A stretch of DNA of 64,000 nucleotides. It comes from a virus. The translations under genes and the position numbers were made by a program. The stretch spans positions 1 to 64,000 of the IMG/VR virus record IMGVR_UViG_3300024495_000023; one strand, 5' to 3'. The notes beneath the pieces were generated by a model. It had not been told where the DNA came from. It ran no database searches and worked only from the letters and a program-made list of their open reading frames with translations. Within the stretch, counting starts at the first letter, position 1; each line of letters begins with the position of its first letter. Shown in pieces: positions 12,984 through 43,038 of this stretch.

Positions 12984-12991
12984 TATTTATA
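12984..12991 (-). promoter_or_regulatory. T4-type late promoter of adhesin B
   Basis: The minus strand carries a perfect TATAAATA, 27 bases before the ATG at 12957. It overlaps the end of the upstream 121-codon gene. The late sigma factor that would read it, gp55, is encoded at 47037-47900. Confidence 0.75.
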
Positions 12992-35410: not shown

Positions 35411-38092
35411 TTATGCCATGTAAGGCATTTTAACTCCTTTTTGAACATGTGCTTTGTTTTGATCTATATATAGTTCTTGTCTGGCTATTTCTAGAAGATT
35501 GGCCATATTAGTATTTAAACTAGAAATGAATTGTACCATCTCGATTTGATCTTTGCTATTAACTATTCCTTCCAGCTGTTGAGGTGTAACTACAGCTTCT
35601 CTGCCATGTAGAATCGCTTTTGTACCTGCTCCAAATTCTTCAAACAGCTTGCCTGTAGCACCTAGAGATCCATACGCACGAGAAGCGGGCGGTGCTCCCG
35701 GAGCTGCTCGAGTCGATGCTGCTGGATTATTTGCTTTTGGTCCTTCACCTGGAAAAAATATTCTAGGATCAAACGTCCTTTCATTTTCTGGTTTTCCTCT
35801 AAATCCTTGTACTTGTACAGTATTAGGTGTTAGATAACTAAACCAAGACCCTGTTAACAGGTTGTTTGGTCCTATACCTATAGTCTGTCCAGCAGTTACT
35901 GGTTTTCCTCGTATAGCATCAAAAATAGCTTTACTTTTTTCTTTATCAAATCCCGAAATCCTTAGAGTTATACCTTCTCCGGAATTAGCTTTTTCATCCC
36001 ATAATTCTACAATTTGTTTTTCGATGTCAGCTACAGTGATCAAACCATTAAATGGAGCACCAAATGGTTCATGACCTTTAGCGAATTCCCATCTTCTTGT
36101 GGAATTTTCTAATGGAACCGTAGCAGATCCAAACTCAGAAGCGCCGGGCACCACCAGTTCTCTAGTTTGATCTTGTGTAAGATATGTACCGGTCATCTTG
36201 CCACCAGCAGACGGAGCGACAAATTGTTGAGTATTAACACCAATAGTGTTAGCTATTGTCATAGTTTCTGATTCAGTTGATGCGTCTGGTGCTATCACAG
36301 AACCAGCATCTCTTTGTATTGTTGTAGCTCCTCCAGAAGAAGTCATGCCGCCTCCGGCTGCTGCTCTTCCTAACGCATTTTTCATTTGAGCTCTTCGTAA
36401 ATTATCGTCATATTTTCCTAAAAATAAACTTACGACACTGTCTGGAGCTCCTTGGGCTACAAGAAAATCAGATATAAGCCTTTTTATTTCTACATACATC
36501 AATCTTGCCCAGCCTTCGAGATGTACAAATATCTTGTTCCTGCCTTCTTCGCTAAACATATTATCATATACAGCAGTCATAGCGGGCATAGCAACATCTT
36601 TGATCCATTTAGAAAGATCTTCACCTGCTTGTTTTAATAAAGCAGGTAGAGGTTTTAATGCTTCTCCCATACCTTTTAATACAGGTATCAATGTGTCAAA
36701 AAAGTTTTTCCTAGCATCTTTGAATGCTAAACTAAATGTATCTAGGATTTTTGTTATACCTTCGTATTTGTTTTTTTTATTTCTACTGTCTTCTATAGCT
36801 TTCCTAAGTTCAGCATCAGTCATCTTGCTGATATCACCAAAACTAAGAAGATCTTGTAACATTTTAGTCATGCCAGGGCCTAATTGTCGTTGACCTTCAG
36901 CTGTGGCCAGTGTGGCCATAAAGAACGACCTGTTGTTTTTAAAATGCTGTAATCCTACTCGATACAATTTAAAAGTTCTTTCAGATTCACCTTTGTTGTA
37001 TTCTTCTTCGGTTACATTATGATCTCTAGCCTGTCTTAGATCTTCTTCTAGAACCTGTCTCATACCCTGTGCTAATCCCAATATTTGGAAAGCACCTTGC
37101 GTGACTGGTGTAGTGTTTGCCGCCTGTGCTTTGTGTAAGTCGGCACCTTGGTCTCCAAACAGAGCTATCATCCTAGTCAGTCTAGTTCTCATCTTGCCTT
37201 GTTCTTGTGGATCTAATTTTGCCAATGATCTTTGATAGATCACATCTTGTTCAACTGCTGCTACTTTTTGAGCTAGAGATTTTCTGTCAACTCCTGACAT
37301 AGATGCTAGCGCATCTAGGTTTTCTATATAACCAACAAACGCTTTGTTAAGATTAGCTGTCCTCTGTGTATTTTCTTGATTGCCCTGATTGGTCATTATC
37401 AACCATTTAGCAAACATATCTCCAGATTCTTCTTGATTTATTCCCAGCTGTAACAGTCTTTCTCTAGCACCACTAGTTCCATTATATAGATTTTCAAAAC
37501 TCATAGATAGGCGTTCAGCGCCTGATCTAACATCTCCAGATAATAGAGATAACCCTTGAGCATTAGAAACTACCAGATTAGCAAATTCATCTAAATCCAT
37601 CCTGGCATTAGCAGCAGCATGACGTAGAGCCAACGCACTATTACCAAAGTTAGCACCAACAGCAGAAGTCTTTTTAAGAGTCGAGTTCCAACCTTCTACT
37701 ACCGCTGTGGTCATCACAAATATATCAAGGAAACCTCCAACTAGCCCGCCAACTAACGGAACTTTCTTGATAAAAGTATCGTTCATTACTCTGGCAAAAT
37801 CACTAAAAGTATTAGTGTTTCTGTCCATAGCACCTTTGAACATGTCTACGCTTTTTTTGATAGCATTAGCAGCTTTGCTGTCTAATTTTGATATAGAATC
37901 CGCTATTTCGCTTGAGCTTTTTTCGTAAGCTGCGGCAGCACCGGCAGTGCTTCCTCTGTTAGTTTCTCCACCTGAATTTTTGTCAAGTTTCTGTATAGCT
38001 TTAAGAAGTTCTTGTAAGCTGGCTTCAGAAACTGCGTTGTCTATAACGCCTCTGGTTCCTGATATGATTATTTCTACATTGCTATTAGGCAT
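35411..38092 (-). CDS. Tape-measure-like protein 1, with degenerate M23-like domain
   Basis: The 893-residue protein is a paralogue of its upstream neighbour. Shared parts are the N-terminus (GVIDNAVSEASLQELLKAI), a hydrophobic segment (KVPLVGGLVGGFLDIFVMTT, ~115-135), EGWNSTLKKTSAVGANFGNS and a C-terminal block typical of tape-measure proteins (GKLFEEFGAGTKAILHGREA). The long centre is helical. Residues ~680-790 (FGAPFNGLITVADIE, then PVTAGQTIGIGPNNLLTGSW) resemble the LytM/M23 peptidase fold, but no HxH or HxxxD zinc motif is visible, so it is probably inactive. It may measure tail length and enter the host with the DNA. It overlaps the upstream gene by 8 bases. Confidence 0.75.
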   Translation of the reverse strand: MPNSNVEIIISGTRGVIDNAVSEASLQELLKAIQKLDKNSGGETNRGSTAGAAAAYEKSSSEIADSISKLDSKAANAIKKSVDMFKGAMDRNTNTFSDFARVMNDTFIKKVPLVGGLVGGFLDIFVMTTAVVEGWNSTLKKTSAVGANFGNSALALRHAAANARMDLDEFANLVVSNAQGLSLLSGDVRSGAERLSMSFENLYNGTSGARERLLQLGINQEESGDMFAKWLIMTNQGNQENTQRTANLNKAFVGYIENLDALASMSGVDRKSLAQKVAAVEQDVIYQRSLAKLDPQEQGKMRTRLTRMIALFGDQGADLHKAQAANTTPVTQGAFQILGLAQGMRQVLEEDLRQARDHNVTEEEYNKGESERTFKLYRVGLQHFKNNRSFFMATLATAEGQRQLGPGMTKMLQDLLSFGDISKMTDAELRKAIEDSRNKKNKYEGITKILDTFSLAFKDARKNFFDTLIPVLKGMGEALKPLPALLKQAGEDLSKWIKDVAMPAMTAVYDNMFSEEGRNKIFVHLEGWARLMYVEIKRLISDFLVAQGAPDSVVSLFLGKYDDNLRRAQMKNALGRAAAGGGMTSSGGATTIQRDAGSVIAPDASTESETMTIANTIGVNTQQFVAPSAGGKMTGTYLTQDQTRELVVPGASEFGSATVPLENSTRRWEFAKGHEPFGAPFNGLITVADIEKQIVELWDEKANSGEGITLRISGFDKEKSKAIFDAIRGKPVTAGQTIGIGPNNLLTGSWFSYLTPNTVQVQGFRGKPENERTFDPRIFFPGEGPKANNPAASTRAAPGAPPASRAYGSLGATGKLFEEFGAGTKAILHGREAVVTPQQLEGIVNSKDQIEMVQFISSLNTNMANLLEIARQELYIDQNKAHVQKGVKMPYMA

Positions 38093-40595
38093 AGATCATA
38101 TTACCTGATTGATGTCTTAAAGTTTCTAGGTGAGATTTATTAATGTCTATTTTTTCTTTATAGATGCTGATAAGAGTGTTCATCTTAGAATTTAGATCAT
38201 TGATCATTTCTCCTACATTAACCTTGCCGCCTGTTGAGATTATATCTTCCATCTGGCTAGGTGTGATAACAGCTTCTCGTCCGTGTAGTTCGACAGGAGT
38301 TCCTGCTCCAAACTCTCCAAACAATTTTCCCATAGTACCTAAGGTACCAGTACTCATTCCTTTAAATTGCCAATGCCATGGTTCGTATGGTTGTTGTAAA
38401 GGCCCTTCCCATCCAAATCTAGTAGCATTCCTTTTTAGCCAATCAAAAACTTTAGGATCACGTACATTGATATCTGTTGCTAATCCCCAACCATGTTTAG
38501 AAAATCCTGGTCGAGCAGCCAGTGTGGGTTTTCTATTTTTAACGTCTACTTGTTCTGCGAATGTTCTATATGAATCAGTTACATTTAGATTGATACCTTC
38601 TCGACGAGCAGCATCAGCCATGGCTATAAAAGCTCTAGCCGCGCTTGGTTGTAATCTATGACGTCCTTGTCCTATGCTAGCTAATGCGCTGTCTGGTAGT
38701 CGACCGTTGCTGCCGTCGGTCATGTTTTCCTGAGGACCATAAGTATAACCTTGTGGAGCAGGTCCAGGTCCTCCGGGAATAGGAGCACCGCCGCCAGCGG
38801 CTGCTTCACGTGCTTCTCTTCTTTGTGTTTCTAATGCCGCAGCATAACCACGTCTTGCTGCGTCAGCTATCGGTGTTGCTGGTTTAGGAATAGCTGCTAG
38901 ATCACGTTCTTTCTGTTTGAGTACTTCTTCTAATTCTTGTTTTAGTTGATTATCTGCTTCAGGACTTTCAAAGGCTTTCCTTATAGCATATCTTAGATAA
39001 GCAGTTATAGTGCTAAACCATGATTCGATCTTGACATTCCATCTTTTCCACCCATTAGCATCTGTAAGTTCTTCAAAAAATCCTACAGCATCGGGTAGAT
39101 ACTCACCTACCCATCGGCCTAGTGTCGTGCCCATTTCTTTCATCTTGTCAGCTACACCAGCTTTGATCAATTCGCTACCTATACCTTCTAATATCGGCAA
39201 TAGCACATCTATCACTTTTGTCTGGAAGTCGTGTGCGCTGAGTCCAAACGCATTTAATATCCTAGTTAATGGATCACCTTCTTTATTTTGATTTTCAAGC
39301 TGTAACAAGAATCCTTCTATCTCATCTACAGATTTCATGTTCGCAATTTTTAGAGTAGTCCTGTTTAATGCTTCCGTGGACTGCCCTATTTCTTTCATGC
39401 CAGGCGCACCACTGGCTATCATAGAATAAAGTGCGTCATTGGCTTTACCTAGTCTAGCAGATTGGAATAGACTTTCGGCTCTGCTTCTTCTCATACGCTT
39501 GCCGTATTCTTCTTCATCTAGTCCTGATTTAGCTAGAGCTTGTCCTCGTCTTGCTTCTGCTACCAGTTGAGGATTTAGTGTCATTAACAATTGAGCAGCA
39601 TCAGTCTGTGGTGCTACTCCTAGATACAGTGCTCTAAACAGTTCAGCTCCAGTTTCGCCATACATGCTTTGGAAATAGGTCATCTGTTGCATGATACGGT
39701 TTCTAGCTTCAGGAGCCAAGCTGTTTAATTTTAATTGGAAAGCTGCGTTTTGACTTTCTTTTTCAGCTTTTGCCTGTAGATCCTCTACGCTTTCTCCAGT
39801 CATCCTAGAAATCAACATGATGTTTTTCATGTAACTTTCAAAGGCTTGGGCTGCTGCTGGTCCTTGTATCCTATTGTCTCTCACACCTCGGTTGACCATG
39901 GTATACCAAGAGGTCATGTTGTCTGCTAGTTGGTCAACAGTTCTGCCCAAGTTAAGCATCCTTTCACCAACACCGCCTGAACCTTTATAAACTTCTCGAG
40001 AAAAATCTGAAACTTCTCTCGCACCTTCAGTGACTCCTCGTCCTAGCATAGCAAAATCTTTGCTGCGTTTAGCTATTAATTGACTAAGTCCGTCCATGTC
40101 TAGGTAAAGACCGGCTGCTACTGATCTCATTTCCATGATGCTGTTGTTAAAATTAGCACCATATGACGATGATTTTTTAAGATTATCGTTCCAACCTTCT
40201 AGTACTTTAACACCTTGGACAAACACATCTCCTAGAGCACCAAGTGTTTCTCCAACGAAAGGCAAATTCTTGATCAGTCCATTATTCAGCGCCGCTGAAT
40301 ATTCACTCATCTTGTCGCTGCCGCTGGCTATCATGCCAGCGAGATTAGTAGTAGTTCCTGCTAAAGCACCTATGCCTTTAGCTAGTTTTTTACCCCATTC
40401 AGATTTGGCTTTATCAGTATTGTCTGCTCTGTTAGCAGCACCACCGCCTCCACCGCCACCAGAACTGCCGCCCATGGATTTGTTGATAGAATTGACCGAT
40501 TTGATAATTTCCTGTAAGGTAGCTTCGCTGGCAGCGTTTTCAATAACGACACCGTCTAGTTCACCACCCAGGATTTGTACTTTTTGTATGGCCAT
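38085..40595 (-). CDS. Tape-measure-like protein 2, with M15 peptidase domain
   Basis: The frame opens at a TTG (40607), but the ATG at 40595 has AGGAAAG directly before it. Its product (MAIQKVQILGGELDGVVIEN) aligns with the start of its paralogue, giving 836 residues. A hydrophobic segment (KNLPFVGETLGALGDVFVQG) and long helices follow. Residues ~630-745 form a peptidase M15 (VanY/D,D-carboxypeptidase) domain: SYRTFAEQ, the zinc motif SKHGWGLATDIN with His and Asp, and YEPWHWQF supplying the catalytic Glu and third ligand His. The C-terminal GKLFGEFGAGTPVELHGREA is shared with paralogue 1. It probably cuts peptidoglycan cross-links during DNA entry. The M15 assignment is firm; the tape-measure role is inferred. 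Confidence 0.8.
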   Translation of the reverse strand: MAIQKVQILGGELDGVVIENAASEATLQEIIKSVNSINKSMGGSSGGGGGGGAANRADNTDKAKSEWGKKLAKGIGALAGTTTNLAGMIASGSDKMSEYSAALNNGLIKNLPFVGETLGALGDVFVQGVKVLEGWNDNLKKSSSYGANFNNSIMEMRSVAAGLYLDMDGLSQLIAKRSKDFAMLGRGVTEGAREVSDFSREVYKGSGGVGERMLNLGRTVDQLADNMTSWYTMVNRGVRDNRIQGPAAAQAFESYMKNIMLISRMTGESVEDLQAKAEKESQNAAFQLKLNSLAPEARNRIMQQMTYFQSMYGETGAELFRALYLGVAPQTDAAQLLMTLNPQLVAEARRGQALAKSGLDEEEYGKRMRRSRAESLFQSARLGKANDALYSMIASGAPGMKEIGQSTEALNRTTLKIANMKSVDEIEGFLLQLENQNKEGDPLTRILNAFGLSAHDFQTKVIDVLLPILEGIGSELIKAGVADKMKEMGTTLGRWVGEYLPDAVGFFEELTDANGWKRWNVKIESWFSTITAYLRYAIRKAFESPEADNQLKQELEEVLKQKERDLAAIPKPATPIADAARRGYAAALETQRREAREAAAGGGAPIPGGPGPAPQGYTYGPQENMTDGSNGRLPDSALASIGQGRHRLQPSAARAFIAMADAARREGINLNVTDSYRTFAEQVDVKNRKPTLAARPGFSKHGWGLATDINVRDPKVFDWLKRNATRFGWEGPLQQPYEPWHWQFKGMSTGTLGTMGKLFGEFGAGTPVELHGREAVITPSQMEDIISTGGKVNVGEMINDLNSKMNTLISIYKEKIDINKSHLETLRHQSGNMIYA

Positions 40596-40633
40596 CTTTC
40601 CTACCAATTATGAAAATGCCAGAAATCTACGCA

Positions 40634-40641
40634 TATAAATA
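40634..40641 (+). promoter_or_regulatory. Late promoter of gp26 (plus strand)
   Basis: A perfect TATAAATA, followed by TCTG, lies 33 bases before the gp26 ATG. The expected start site is near 40647, on top of the opposing promoter at 40656-40663. Confidence 0.8.
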
Positions 40642-40655
40642 TCTGAACACTATTA

Positions 40656-40663
40656 TATTTATA
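40656..40663 (-). promoter_or_regulatory. Late promoter of the tape-measure genes (minus strand)
   Basis: The minus strand carries a perfect TATAAATA, followed by TAATAG. The expected start site is near 40650, giving a leader of about 55 bases to the ATG at 40595. It faces the gp26 promoter. Confidence 0.8.
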
Positions 40664-40673
40664 GGTATAGAAA

Positions 40674-41579
40674 ATGGCAGAATTTATCAACAACTTAAAC
40701 CCAACATCTGCGCAGCCAGCACCTGCTGTGAAAACAGATAAAAATCCTCTAGCAGCATTTTTTCGACAGCCCAAAATTTGGATTTCGCTGCCTAGCAAAG
40801 GAGAGTTTTACCCAGAAGGTGCTTTAGAAAAAACTATCAACAACGAGTATCCTGTGTTTGCTATGACAGCTCGAGATGAACTGTTGTTTAAAACACCAGA
40901 TGCGCTGATGAACGGTGCTGCTACTGTAGAAGTTATACGTAGCTGTGTACCTAACATCAAAGATGGTTGGGCAGTGCCTAGCTTAGATGTTGATGCTATC
41001 TTAGTAGCTATCCGTATCGCTACCTACGGCGAAGAAATGGATGTCACCGCAGGTTGTCCTAAATGCGAAACTGTAAATGATCTAGCTGTTGATCTAAGGA
41101 ATGTGTTAGATAGTCTTAACAAAGTAAATTTCAATAAAACTGTCGAGATAGGCGATAGTATGTTGGTTCATCTACGTCCTATGGACTACAATCAATTGAC
41201 CAAAGTCAGCTTAAAAGCATTTGAACACCAGCGTATATTTTCTATCATCAATGATGATCGTATCGAGGAACAGGAAAAAGTTAGGATGTTCCAAGAAAGT
41301 TTTGTCAAGCTCACTGATTTGACTATCGATTCTGCTGTTAATTGTATTAGTAAGATCGAAAGTACAGAAGGTAGCACAGATAATCCAGAGTTTATCAGAG
41401 AATTTTTAACCAACGCTGATAAATCTATATTCCAATCTATCACTGATGCTGTAAACAAAAGCAAAGAAAGCGGAACTATGAGCTCATTTAAAGCCAAATG
41501 TTCCAAATGCGAGCACGAATGGTCCGTAGATCTTAACATGGACAGCTCGGATTTTTTCGGTTCAGGCTTTCGTCGTTAA
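40674..41579 (+). CDS. gp26: Baseplate hub assembly protein / putative tail assembly chaperone
   Basis: The 301-residue protein resembles the T4 base-plate gp26 family. Landmarks are FFRQPKIWISLPSKGEFYPE, MTARDELLFKTPDALMNGAA, VIRSCVPNI and IRIATYGEEMDV. Two CxxC pairs (C128/C131 in GCPKCE; C276/C279 in CSKCEHEW) probably share one zinc ion. The last codons overlap a second frame: TTTTTTC at 41552-41558 is read as TTT TTC in frame 0, and a stable hairpin begins six bases later. A -1 slip would fuse residues 1-295 to a 76-residue gp51-like extension. The gene lies opposite the tape-measure genes, a usual place for tail assembly chaperones. It starts behind the late promoter at 40634. Confidence 0.88.
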   Translation: MAEFINNLNPTSAQPAPAVKTDKNPLAAFFRQPKIWISLPSKGEFYPEGALEKTINNEYPVFAMTARDELLFKTPDALMNGAATVEVIRSCVPNIKDGWAVPSLDVDAILVAIRIATYGEEMDVTAGCPKCETVNDLAVDLRNVLDSLNKVNFNKTVEIGDSMLVHLRPMDYNQLTKVSLKAFEHQRIFSIINDDRIEEQEKVRMFQESFVKLTDLTIDSAVNCISKIESTEGSTDNPEFIREFLTNADKSIFQSITDAVNKSKESGTMSSFKAKCSKCEHEWSVDLNMDSSDFFGSGFRR

Positions 41580-41611
41580 CGATTGATGAAATCCTGGCTG
41601 AGACGAAAGCC
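41552..41611 (+). promoter_or_regulatory. Putative -1 programmed ribosomal frameshift signal
   Basis: The heptamer TTTTTTC (41552-41558) fits X XXY YYZ in the gp26 frame. After six bases comes the stem GGCTTTCGTC (41565-41574), perfectly complementary to GACGAAAGCC (41602-41611), with a 27-base loop. Heptamer, spacer and 10-bp stem are the canonical parts of a -1 frameshift signal. Slippage would move ribosomes into a frame that stays open to 41788. Confidence 0.85.
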
Positions 41612-41788
41612 CTTGACGAACAGGCCAAAGACGTTAAACTTGAAGCTTTTAGATGTATATGGTACCTGCGTGGAGGAATGTCTTATACCGAAGCCATGAA
41701 CCTCAGCTATGAGGAAAGAGAAATAATACAGAAGTTAGTAAAAGAAAATATAGAAATCGCTAAGACTTCTGGACTGCCTTTCTTTTAA
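41558..41788 (+). CDS. gp51-like: gp51-like extension, made only by frameshift from gp26
   Basis: This frame encodes 76 residues after the slip. It includes LSSLTIDEILAETKALDEQA, EAFRCIWYLRGGMSYTEAM and a C-terminus KENIEIAKTSGLPFF. A stop at 41534-41536 closes the frame upstream. Between it and residue 41 of the extension there is no ATG, GTG or TTG, and no Shine-Dalgarno is seen, so independent translation is unlikely. The predicted fusion with gp26 has 371 residues. The pattern equals the G/GT chaperone pair of lambda-like phages, in which the longer product loads the tape measure. Calling it gp51-like is from position and partial memory of T4-type sequences; the frame and signal are directly visible. 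Its stop overlaps the convergent gene's stop by four bases. Confidence 0.82.
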   Translation, partial: RFRLSSLTIDEILAETKALDEQAKDVKLEAFRCIWYLRGGMSYTEAMNLSYEEREIIQKLVKENIEIAKTSGLPFF

Positions 41789-43038
41789 GCCTGTATTCGT
41801 TTTAACAGCGTGAATGCTTTTTGTGTAGTAGCAGGATCAGCTTTCATCAGATCGATCATAGCAGATGCTAGCACTGCTTGATGTGTCCTACTTAACTGTC
41901 CACCGCTCTTGACCGTGCTCACAGCCATTTTTAATTGAGCTGGATTGACATTAGGCAATAGCTGTGTTAACGCATTGACGTTTAGCGAACCTTGTATACC
42001 GCTTTGTCCGCCACCAGAAGCATCGCCTGCTTGCTGTCCAGTTAGACCTCCAGCGACACCTTGTTTAAAACTGTCCCAAGCACTGCCACCGCCCTGGGCA
42101 GCACCTTGATTGCCTCCACCCATAGGACCTTGTGCGGCACCACCTTGGTCAACGATATTACCTGTGTTTGGATCTAGTCCATAGCCCATCTTGGCAGCAT
42201 CATGAGCAGCTTGCATGAATGCTTTGTCTAGTGTAGCTTGTGGAAGAGCTTCTTCAGTGTACATGCTCATGTTTAGACCTTTAGAACGGATTTTAGCTGC
42301 TCCTGACTTAAAAGATCCGGCAGCATTAGCATTAACACCTTTTGCGGCCTGTATTCTTATCTTATCATCAGCGGTCCGTGCCCATCCAGGTTTGTTCTGA
42401 GCGTCAGCTGCAGCCTGCTGTGTAGCCATAGCAGCTTTACCTGCGGCTTTACGTGCTTTTTTATCAATTTTATTAGTGTTCTGTTGCGCTGGCGTTTGTG
42501 TTTGTGATGCGCTAGGTTTTGTTGTTGGTTGTGCTGCTGCTGTTGGTTGTGCTGTTGCTGTTGGTTGTGCTGTTGGTTGTGCTTGTGATGCGCTAGGTTG
42601 AGCTGTAGCTGTCGCATCGTCGTCTCCTGTTGGCTCAATCCTGTCTTGTGGCTGTTCAGGATTAGCTTTTAGCCTGTTGCCTAAAGAGCCAGCAGCGCCT
42701 TTCATCTTGCCCATGATGCCACCGCCCATAGGACCTTTCGGAGCTCTGTTACCAGTAGCAGAGTTAGCTTCTTTGTCTAAAACCATCTTAGCGCCATCAG
42801 ATGGATAACCTTTGCTTTGTAGGAAACGTAGTACAGCATCAGCATCAGGTTCTAGCTTAGTAGCACCAAGGAATCTGTTAAAATCTCTCATTAGAGCATT
42901 AGCGATAGCACCAGTATCTAGTTTACCAGCAGCTTTATCACTGCCAAATTTACTCATTATACCAAGTCCAGCTCGTTTGAGCATGCCTTGTGGTGCTTCT
43001 TTGACCTGTGATTCGATTAAGATATCATTGATTCTCAT
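41785..43038 (-). CDS. Low-complexity Ala/Gln/Gly-rich protein, 417 aa
   Basis: The N-terminal ~95 residues are helical (MRINDILIESQVKEAPQGML, then LGIMSKFGSDKAAGKLDTG). The middle (~130-195) is an Ala-Gln-Pro-Thr repeat, followed by Lys/Ala-rich sequence and a Gly/Gln-rich stretch (GGAAQGPMGGGNQGAAQGGG). The C-terminus is a compact helical domain (LNVNALTQLLPNVNPAQLKM, SAMIDLMKADPATTQKAFTL). No family is recognised. A late promoter at 43066-43073 implies late expression and probably a virion or assembly role. Its stop codon overlaps the stop of the convergent gp51-like frame. Confidence 0.75.
   Translation of the reverse strand: MRINDILIESQVKEAPQGMLKRAGLGIMSKFGSDKAAGKLDTGAIANALMRDFNRFLGATKLEPDADAVLRFLQSKGYPSDGAKMVLDKEANSATGNRAPKGPMGGGIMGKMKGAAGSLGNRLKANPEQPQDRIEPTGDDDATATAQPSASQAQPTAQPTATAQPTAAAQPTTKPSASQTQTPAQQNTNKIDKKARKAAGKAAMATQQAAADAQNKPGWARTADDKIRIQAAKGVNANAAGSFKSGAAKIRSKGLNMSMYTEEALPQATLDKAFMQAAHDAAKMGYGLDPNTGNIVDQGGAAQGPMGGGNQGAAQGGGSAWDSFKQGVAGGLTGQQAGDASGGGQSGIQGSLNVNALTQLLPNVNPAQLKMAVSTVKSGGQLSRTHQAVLASAMIDLMKADPATTQKAFTLLKRIQA
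42483..42604 (-). repeat. Tandem Gln-Pro-Thr-Ala coding repeat
   Basis: About ten short units encode AQPT, TAQPT or AAQPT in a row. The block is flanked by two copies of TGTGATGCGCTAGGTT, which encode PSASQ. Such arrays can change length by slippage. Confidence 0.7.

Follow-up and report, generated by a model that had tools for sequence, protein, structure and literature searches.

The gp26-like gene of this virus very probably encodes a tail assembly chaperone that is produced in a short and a long form by −1 ribosomal frameshifting, like G and GT of phage lambda. An earlier note on this DNA had proposed a programmed −1 frameshift of this lambda kind, with a short and a long gp26 product, and the comparative data favour it. 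According to the proposed mechanism, most ribosomes would terminate at position 41579 and release the 301-residue short form. A fraction of the ribosomes would pause at a stem 6 nt past the heptamer T_TTT_TTC, with Phe-tRNAs on both slippery codons, slip back by one base and read 76 more codons, and the resulting long form of 371 residues would consist of the short-form sequence followed by a helical C domain. By analogy with lambda G and GT, the role of the two forms is presumably to coat the tape measure protein and to bring in subunits of the tail tube. We infer slippage, its rate and the chaperone role as parts of the best explanation for what can be read from the sequences, namely the heptamer, its register, an open −1 frame of coding character, the conservation of this arrangement and, in subgroups, the covariation of the stem.

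The window, i.e., the whole stretch of 64,000 nucleotides that was analysed, is part of an 88,166-base IMG/VR virus record in which T4-type portal and major capsid genes are present. The gp26 gene lies on the plus strand and is flanked by minus-strand genes (Table 1). Its product matches PF12322 (T4_baseplate) with an E-value of 6.1e-17 and 62.5 bits (61.9 in a second run; curated cut-off, 24.5) and phrog_150 (baseplate hub) with 6.4e-23, and its two CxxC pairs, at residues 128 and 276, are both upstream of the heptamer. The −1 frame comprises 78 codons, i.e., the two Phe codons and 76 codons after them, and its first ATG, GTG or TTG is found 42 codons past the heptamer start and 40 past the Phe-Phe pair (FF). 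When the coordinates were re-read, the heptamer proved correct to the base in the gp26 register, and the perfect 10-bp stem, its spacer and its loop were as the earlier note had described them. The 76 codons past FF, the first 40 of them free of ATG, GTG and TTG, and the two product sizes, with both CxxC pairs kept in each product, were likewise borne out. The description of the immediate neighbours as divergent and tape-measure-like applies to the upstream gene; the downstream gene converges on gp26 and has no tail match.

Table 1. Features of the gp26 locus in the window
Feature	Position	Strand	Remarks
Divergent neighbour, tape-measure-like with VanY peptidase domain	38085–40607	−	phrog_16823, PF02557
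gp26-like gene, short form, proposed TAC-N	40674–41579	+	301 aa; PF12322 and phrog_150 matches
Putative slippery heptamer T_TTT_TTC	41552–41558	+	in gp26 register; kept in 96/96 distinct giant-phage loci
−1 frame C domain (end includes the stop)	41552–41788	+	substitution pattern; helical model; with gp26, the proposed TAC-NC
6-nt spacer GGTTCA	41559–41564	+	coordinates re-read
Stem 5′ arm GGCTTTCGTC	41565–41574	+	perfect 10-bp stem with the 3′ arm
gp26 0-frame stop TAA, within the stem loop	41577–41579	+	coordinates re-read
Stem 3′ arm GACGAAAGCC	41602–41611	+	loop 27 nt
Downstream neighbour, convergent	41785–43038	−	without tail match

The upstream neighbour matches phrog_16823 (tape measure) with 1.7e-17 over residues 621–747 and PF02557 (VanY) with 4.6e-15 over residues 644–744, and the tape measure match overlies the VanY peptidase part of the protein. 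A VanY D-Ala-D-Ala carboxypeptidase domain is carried by this tape-measure-like minus-strand gene. The sequence TATAAATA, which we take to be T4 late-promoter-like, occurs only three times in the 64-kb window (7.5 expected), at 40634–40641 (+), 40656–40663 (−) and 12984–12991 (−), each time shortly upstream of a gene start, and two of these sites, in divergent orientation, separate gp26 from the tape-measure-like gene.

The sequence TTTTTTC alone is barely informative, and its count (26 in the window versus 15 expected) was rejected as stand-alone evidence. As is expected of a frameshift site, an X_XXY_YYZ heptamer lies in the zero frame close to the 3′ end of the first ORF, gp26. Among the 26 window ORFs of at least 150 aa, only two have an in-register heptamer of this form in the last ~60 nt, and the −1 opening behind it extends over 78 codons in gp26 versus 2 in the other ORF. 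The same arrangement was found in Phosso, Atu_ph07, XaC1, CBB, PA5oct, PAC2, 121Q, RaK2, Vibrio 2.275.O, RAS14, Kaldavass, XacN1, BF, Munch, GAP32 and XbC2, the 16 named phages that were examined out of 63 named records matched, and their gp26 proteins are 26–34% identical to that of the window (12 of the 16 aligned). Together with IMG/VR loci, the giant-phage set comprises 105 loci, of which 96 are distinct in the sense of not being identical over 210 nt around the heptamer, and close relatives remain among them; the locus scans covered the best 80 of at least 597 and the best 80 of at least 594 relatives, and these samples lean to close relatives. Eleven of the 19 loci of one set (L017–L020, L024–L027, L029, L030 and L033) were omitted from the count as repeats of loci or contigs already included, and all 19 carry the heptamer followed by an open −1 frame, with L025, L026 and L030 ending at contig ends. 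In the distinct giant-phage loci, the heptamer always coincides with the last conserved Phe-Phe of gp26 and is always in register (94 TTTTTTC and 2 TTTTTTT), and the −1 frame is open in 96 of 96, one of which is cut by a contig end. A cyanophage-type set of 83 loci, 79 of them distinct, has the heptamer in 79 of 79, with seven T in one. Relatives without the slippery site and with gp51 behind its own ATG, which the earlier note had named as counter-evidence, were not found: none of the distinct loci of either set lacks the heptamer. On this comparative evidence, we consider the arrangement of the heptamer to be more than chance. A base-calling error in the T run was also considered and rejected: the run is six T or longer in all distinct loci of the two sets, and because four additional IMG/VR records whose gp26 protein is identical to that of the window (L017–L020) also have six T, a miscalled run length is unlikely.

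Codon choice provides a further comparison. In an alignment of 71 giant-phage sequences, 13 columns have a two-fold residue in at least 90% of the rows. The two Phe codons of the site are fixed, with TTT in 71 of 71 sequences and TTC in 69 of 71, whereas the main codon of the 11 other columns accounts for 54–87% (69% and 87% at the two other Phe columns). In the cyanophage-type alignment of 33 sequences, the site codons are TTT in 33 and TTC in 32, versus main codons of 52% to 97% at 27 other two-fold columns; because these other columns range so high, the contrast is real but less complete in the cyanophage-type loci. The probabilities calculated for the synonymous choices, 10^-34.9 and 10^-27.7, assume independence and ignore descent, and the comparison with the other two-fold columns is the better control.

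In 2004, Xu, Hendrix and Duda reportedly described lambda G/GT and other tail assembly chaperones that arise through a −1 frameshift. The locus studied here resembles the lambda type in that a short form would be accompanied by a −1 extension, a slippery run lies at the 3′ end of the first ORF, the second ORF has no proper start, and tail tube or tape-measure-like genes lie close by. It differs in encoding a homologue of T4 gp26, in having a divergent gene beside it instead of a downstream one, and in its heptamer, T_TTT_TTC. The frameshift chaperones of Xu, Hendrix and Duda are mentioned in a passage of PMC10885494, and a passage of PMC12846349 reports tail assembly chaperones made by −1 frameshift in Adele and in Vandenendeviridae. 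As in such chaperones, two forms with a common N part, the long one arising by frameshifting, are predicted for gp26.

A real frameshift might nevertheless yield structural parts of the baseplate hub rather than assembly chaperones. The database names (baseplate hub) agree with such a role, the CBB record names gp250, its gp26 homologue, a "structural protein", and an excerpt of a T4 review states that genetic studies support the presence of gp26 in the hub (PMC3004832). However, the same review lists T4 gp26 and gp51 as hub assembly chaperones and gp51 as absent from the particle. The homologues of XacN1 and RaK2 were not detected in virions, according to a passage of PMC5852040; the CBB virion table, as excerpted from PMC5259590, runs from CBB_247 to CBB_251 without 250; and the PA5oct record notes detection by MS for the portal and a large neighbour and not for the gp26 homologue. 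The gp26 homologues of LIS04, SP-15 and immuto are located between the tail tube and tape measure genes, where tail assembly chaperones are usually encoded; the tape-measure-like gene that adjoins gp26 in the window is divergent. The production of two forms is, moreover, typical of tail assembly chaperones according to a passage of PMC12846349. From the listing of the T4 proteins as chaperones, the position between the tube and tape measure genes, and the virion lists, a chaperone in two forms is favoured, and we regard structural hub parts as rather unlikely.

Past the heptamer, the −1 frame of the giant-phage loci encodes a conserved domain of 70–80 residues. In 621 giant-phage pairs, the substitutions past the gp26 stop fall at −1-frame codon positions 1, 2 and 3 in proportions of 28, 17 and 55%, a pattern typical of coding DNA. 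The C domain could be a separate small protein translated from a coupled or non-standard start of its own, with the T run reflecting a codon habit. The C part, or a piece of it, is indeed listed as a gene of its own in 13 of the 16 giant-phage records examined and omitted in the other 3, and the joined product is annotated in none of them. In six loci (L001, L002, L007, L011, L013 and L016), an ATG is adjacent to the gp26 stop codon or overlaps with it. In 50 of 95 giant-phage loci and 65 of 76 of the cyanophage type, a candidate start is found no more than 20 codons from the heptamer, and the domain might be started separately there; many of these cyanophage-type loci have an ATG soon past the gp26 stop, and the domain of S-SCSM1 lies out of the −1 frame and behind an ATG. 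However, the first 20 codons past the heptamer lack any start in 45 of the 95 giant-phage loci and in only 11 of the 76 cyanophage-type loci, the first 30 lack one in 24 of the 95, and the −1 frames of PA5oct and PAC2 lack ATG, GTG and TTG altogether. The conservation of the −1 frame begins at FFR, upstream of most candidate starts, and the codon choice at the site is fixed. In the window, an own start would drop half of the C domain because the first one lies so far past FF. We consider separate translation quite improbable. The frameshift would explain why the small downstream ORF frequently lacks a proper start, and it would assign a complete product, along with a likely function, to a gene that is split or incomplete in the giant-phage records. 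The PAC2 record places a hypothetical minus-strand gene over the C domain of the chaperone (L006 3836–3967, −), and this annotation is probably not a gene.

The AlphaFold model of the C domain is confident and helical with a mean pLDDT of 89.6, and that of gp26, also confident, reaches 87.9. Matches were found to predicted viral structures named T4-like baseplate hub proteins, e.g., those of SP-15 (5.5e-11) and Aeromonas phage 25 gp26 (2.9e-6). Fold searches of the PDB with the gp26 and C-domain models matched no solved structure, and a PDB sequence search with the gp26 profile gave no result. A Pfam and PHROG search with the −1 ORF of the window gave no match over the cut-off; the RaK2 and 121Q versions of the C domain match phrog_18291, a family of unknown function.

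For the downstream stem, the best helix with its 5′ arm 3–13 nt past the heptamer was compared with the same measure inside gp26 in 95 giant-phage loci, one locus being too short. The mean helix score was 20.2 versus 12.6 (sd 2.6) at the control places. No control place was as good in 52 of the 95 loci, and at most 5% of the controls were as good in 64; in the other 31, more than 5% of the controls equalled the site helix, and some loci have no stem. Stem geometry varies among subgroups, with the 5′ arm mostly starting 3–7 nt past the heptamer. Covariation was assessed in subgroups of 34, 6 and 18 loci, which were chosen after the helix positions were seen and in which members without the helix were kept. 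In the 34-locus subgroup, 26 cells change on both sides versus 7.0 in shuffles (0 of 500 as many), and pairing falls from 86% to at most 51% when the partner is slid; the 18-locus subgroup has 10 both-side changes versus 3.0 (0 of 500). In the window's own six-locus group, 97% of the cells pair, and covariation does not exceed the shuffles (one both-side pair, equalled in 108 of 500). The fold z-score is −2.81 for the window, −2.3 for L021, −4.0 for Phosso, −6.7 for Atu_ph07, −4.1 for S-PM2 and −5.1 for L113, and only −1.4 for L087, where the folded piece began inside the 5′ arm. The cyanophage-type stems are weaker (17.6 versus 13.3, with no control as good in 22 of 77 loci). The conservation of the heptamer and the compensatory stem changes that had been suggested as a check in related phages were found, the heptamer in every distinct locus and covariation in two subgroups. 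Taken together, these comparisons suggest a short-spaced downstream stem under selection, with a mixed picture across loci.

The cyanophage-type loci appear to use an additional signal. In S-PM2 and P-SSM3, the same heptamer lies one codon before the gp26 stop, and a small gene (named gp51 in S-PM2) follows gp26 in the −1 frame, i.e., the two ORFs have the same relation as in the window. The cyanophage-type gp26 is, on average, ~40 residues shorter than the giant-phage gp26, and a Shine-Dalgarno-like GGAGGG or GAGGG is found ~9 nt upstream of the heptamer in cyanophage-type loci (e.g., at about 21161–21176 in L038). The best duplex upstream of the heptamer averages −7.43 versus −1.39 in controls, and values of −5 or lower are reached in 89% versus 11%. 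Within the element, Glu is encoded by GAG in 61 of 74 cases; outside it, GAG accounts for 575 of 1902 Glu codons of the same genes. Because the element of S-PM2 is 24 nt from the annotated ATG of gp51, it would be too far away to serve that start in the usual way. In the giant-phage set, the element is absent upstream of the heptamer (mean −1.36 versus −1.55 in controls). A bacterial frameshift signal of the dnaX type combines a Shine-Dalgarno-like element, an A-run heptamer and a downstream stem. Many cyanophage-type loci have all three parts, but with a T run instead of an A run, and the window's group differs in lacking the Shine-Dalgarno-like part. RNA polymerase slippage on the six-T run, which would yield a mixed mRNA population encoding the long form, agrees with a T run kept in every distinct locus of both sets and with seven T in two giant-phage loci and one cyanophage-type locus, but it would need neither the stem and its covariation nor the Shine-Dalgarno-like element of the cyanophage-type loci, a six-base run is short for it, and we hold it to be extremely improbable.

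Of the distinct cyanophage-type loci, 76 have a fully open −1 frame, two are cut by contig ends and one, S-SCSM1, is closed: its heptamer is kept, and the −1 frame closes after 6 codons. The C domain of S-SCSM1 is found in the +1 frame behind an ATG (L039 2671–2874), and this frame change is either a real loss or a sequencing indel. Because the domain lies in another frame and behind an ATG, it is probably not made by −1 slippage.

In T4, genes 26 and 51 are separate, as the earlier note had stated, and lie on opposite strands. The N part of T4 gp51 resembles both T4 gp26 (1.7e-6 by blastp of the two sequences alone) and the gp26 profile of the cyanophages (2.8e-7), and its C end matches the cyanophage −1 domain (hhalign, 1.3e-7, 94%). 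Therefore, T4 gp51 resembles a frameshift product that is encoded in one continuous gene, with the layout of the predicted fusion. The giant-phage gp26 matches the cyanophage gp26 nearly end to end (1.8e-13) and the N part of T4 gp51 over 75 columns (6.1e-5, 65%). In profile comparisons of the hhalign type, the C domain of the window's group matches the cyanophage C domain weakly (4e-4, 34%), and it has no direct match in register to the T4 gp51 profile, which was built from 7 of 11 available sequences. The −1 ORF had been called gp51-like, and this holds for the C-terminal part of gp51 (well for the cyanophage version, weakly for the window's group) and not for the whole of gp51. The likeness to T4 consists of a gp26 homologue and a gp51 with the layout of the predicted long form; the difference is that the two forms are separate opposite-strand genes in T4 and would here come from one gene with a slippery site. 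These relations would connect genes 26 and 51, which T4 uses for hub assembly, with the tail chaperone strategy in general.

A possible, if tentative, reading is that frameshifting is ancestral for the long chaperone of the gp26 superfamily, that the divergent genes 26 and 51 of T4 are derived, a duplicated copy having been fused in frame, and that lineages have switched both the slip and its stimulator. The slip would be −1 in the giant phages and cyanophages and +1 or −2 in SP-15, LIS04, RM378, BRock and immuto, and the stimulator would be a stem without an upstream element in some and a Shine-Dalgarno-like element, often with a stem, in others. If this reading is true, the loss and re-tuning of programmed frameshifting could be tested within one gene family.

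Frameshifted tail chaperones are already known as a kind. The earlier note knew of no description of the frameshift for this group; the idea of tail assembly chaperones in T4-like phages has been published (Vladimirov, Gautam and Davidson 2022). According to a passage of PMC10885494, Vladimirov et al. (2022) found that some T4-like phages have a short gene and a fused long gene and no frameshifting, and a passage of PMC12846349 refers to the same work for −1 signals of the poly-T kind in the TAC-N genes that T4-like phages have. From these passages, the kind, and probably part of this family, has already been described. Among the matches listed, no open paper reports a frameshift at gp26 of giant T4-like phages, which Vladimirov et al. 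(2022) may cover, and the word "frameshift" does not occur in the Atu_ph07, XacN1, CBB, RaK2 and MIJ3 papers or in a jumbo-phage overview. The present analysis adds the giant-phage scope, the covariation of the stem, the Shine-Dalgarno-like element of the cyanophage-type loci, and a fusion that the 16 records leave unannotated.

Two further arrangements were observed among gp26 homologues. In LIS04, SP-15, BRock, RM378 and immuto, the gp26 homologue is followed by an overlapping ORF in the +1 (= −2) frame instead of the −1 frame (L041 3123–3431, L042 3090–3413, L044 2973–3215, L045 3174–3404 and L046 3138–3443), and a slip in these phages would be +1 or −2, judging from the frames; the overlapping ORFs of LIS04 and SP-15 are alike from shortly past a T6 run. 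A huge uncultured phage of 595 kb, LR756511, likewise has T_TTT_TTC at its gp26 homologue, 66 nt before the gp26 stop, with an open −1 frame (L043 3154–3426).
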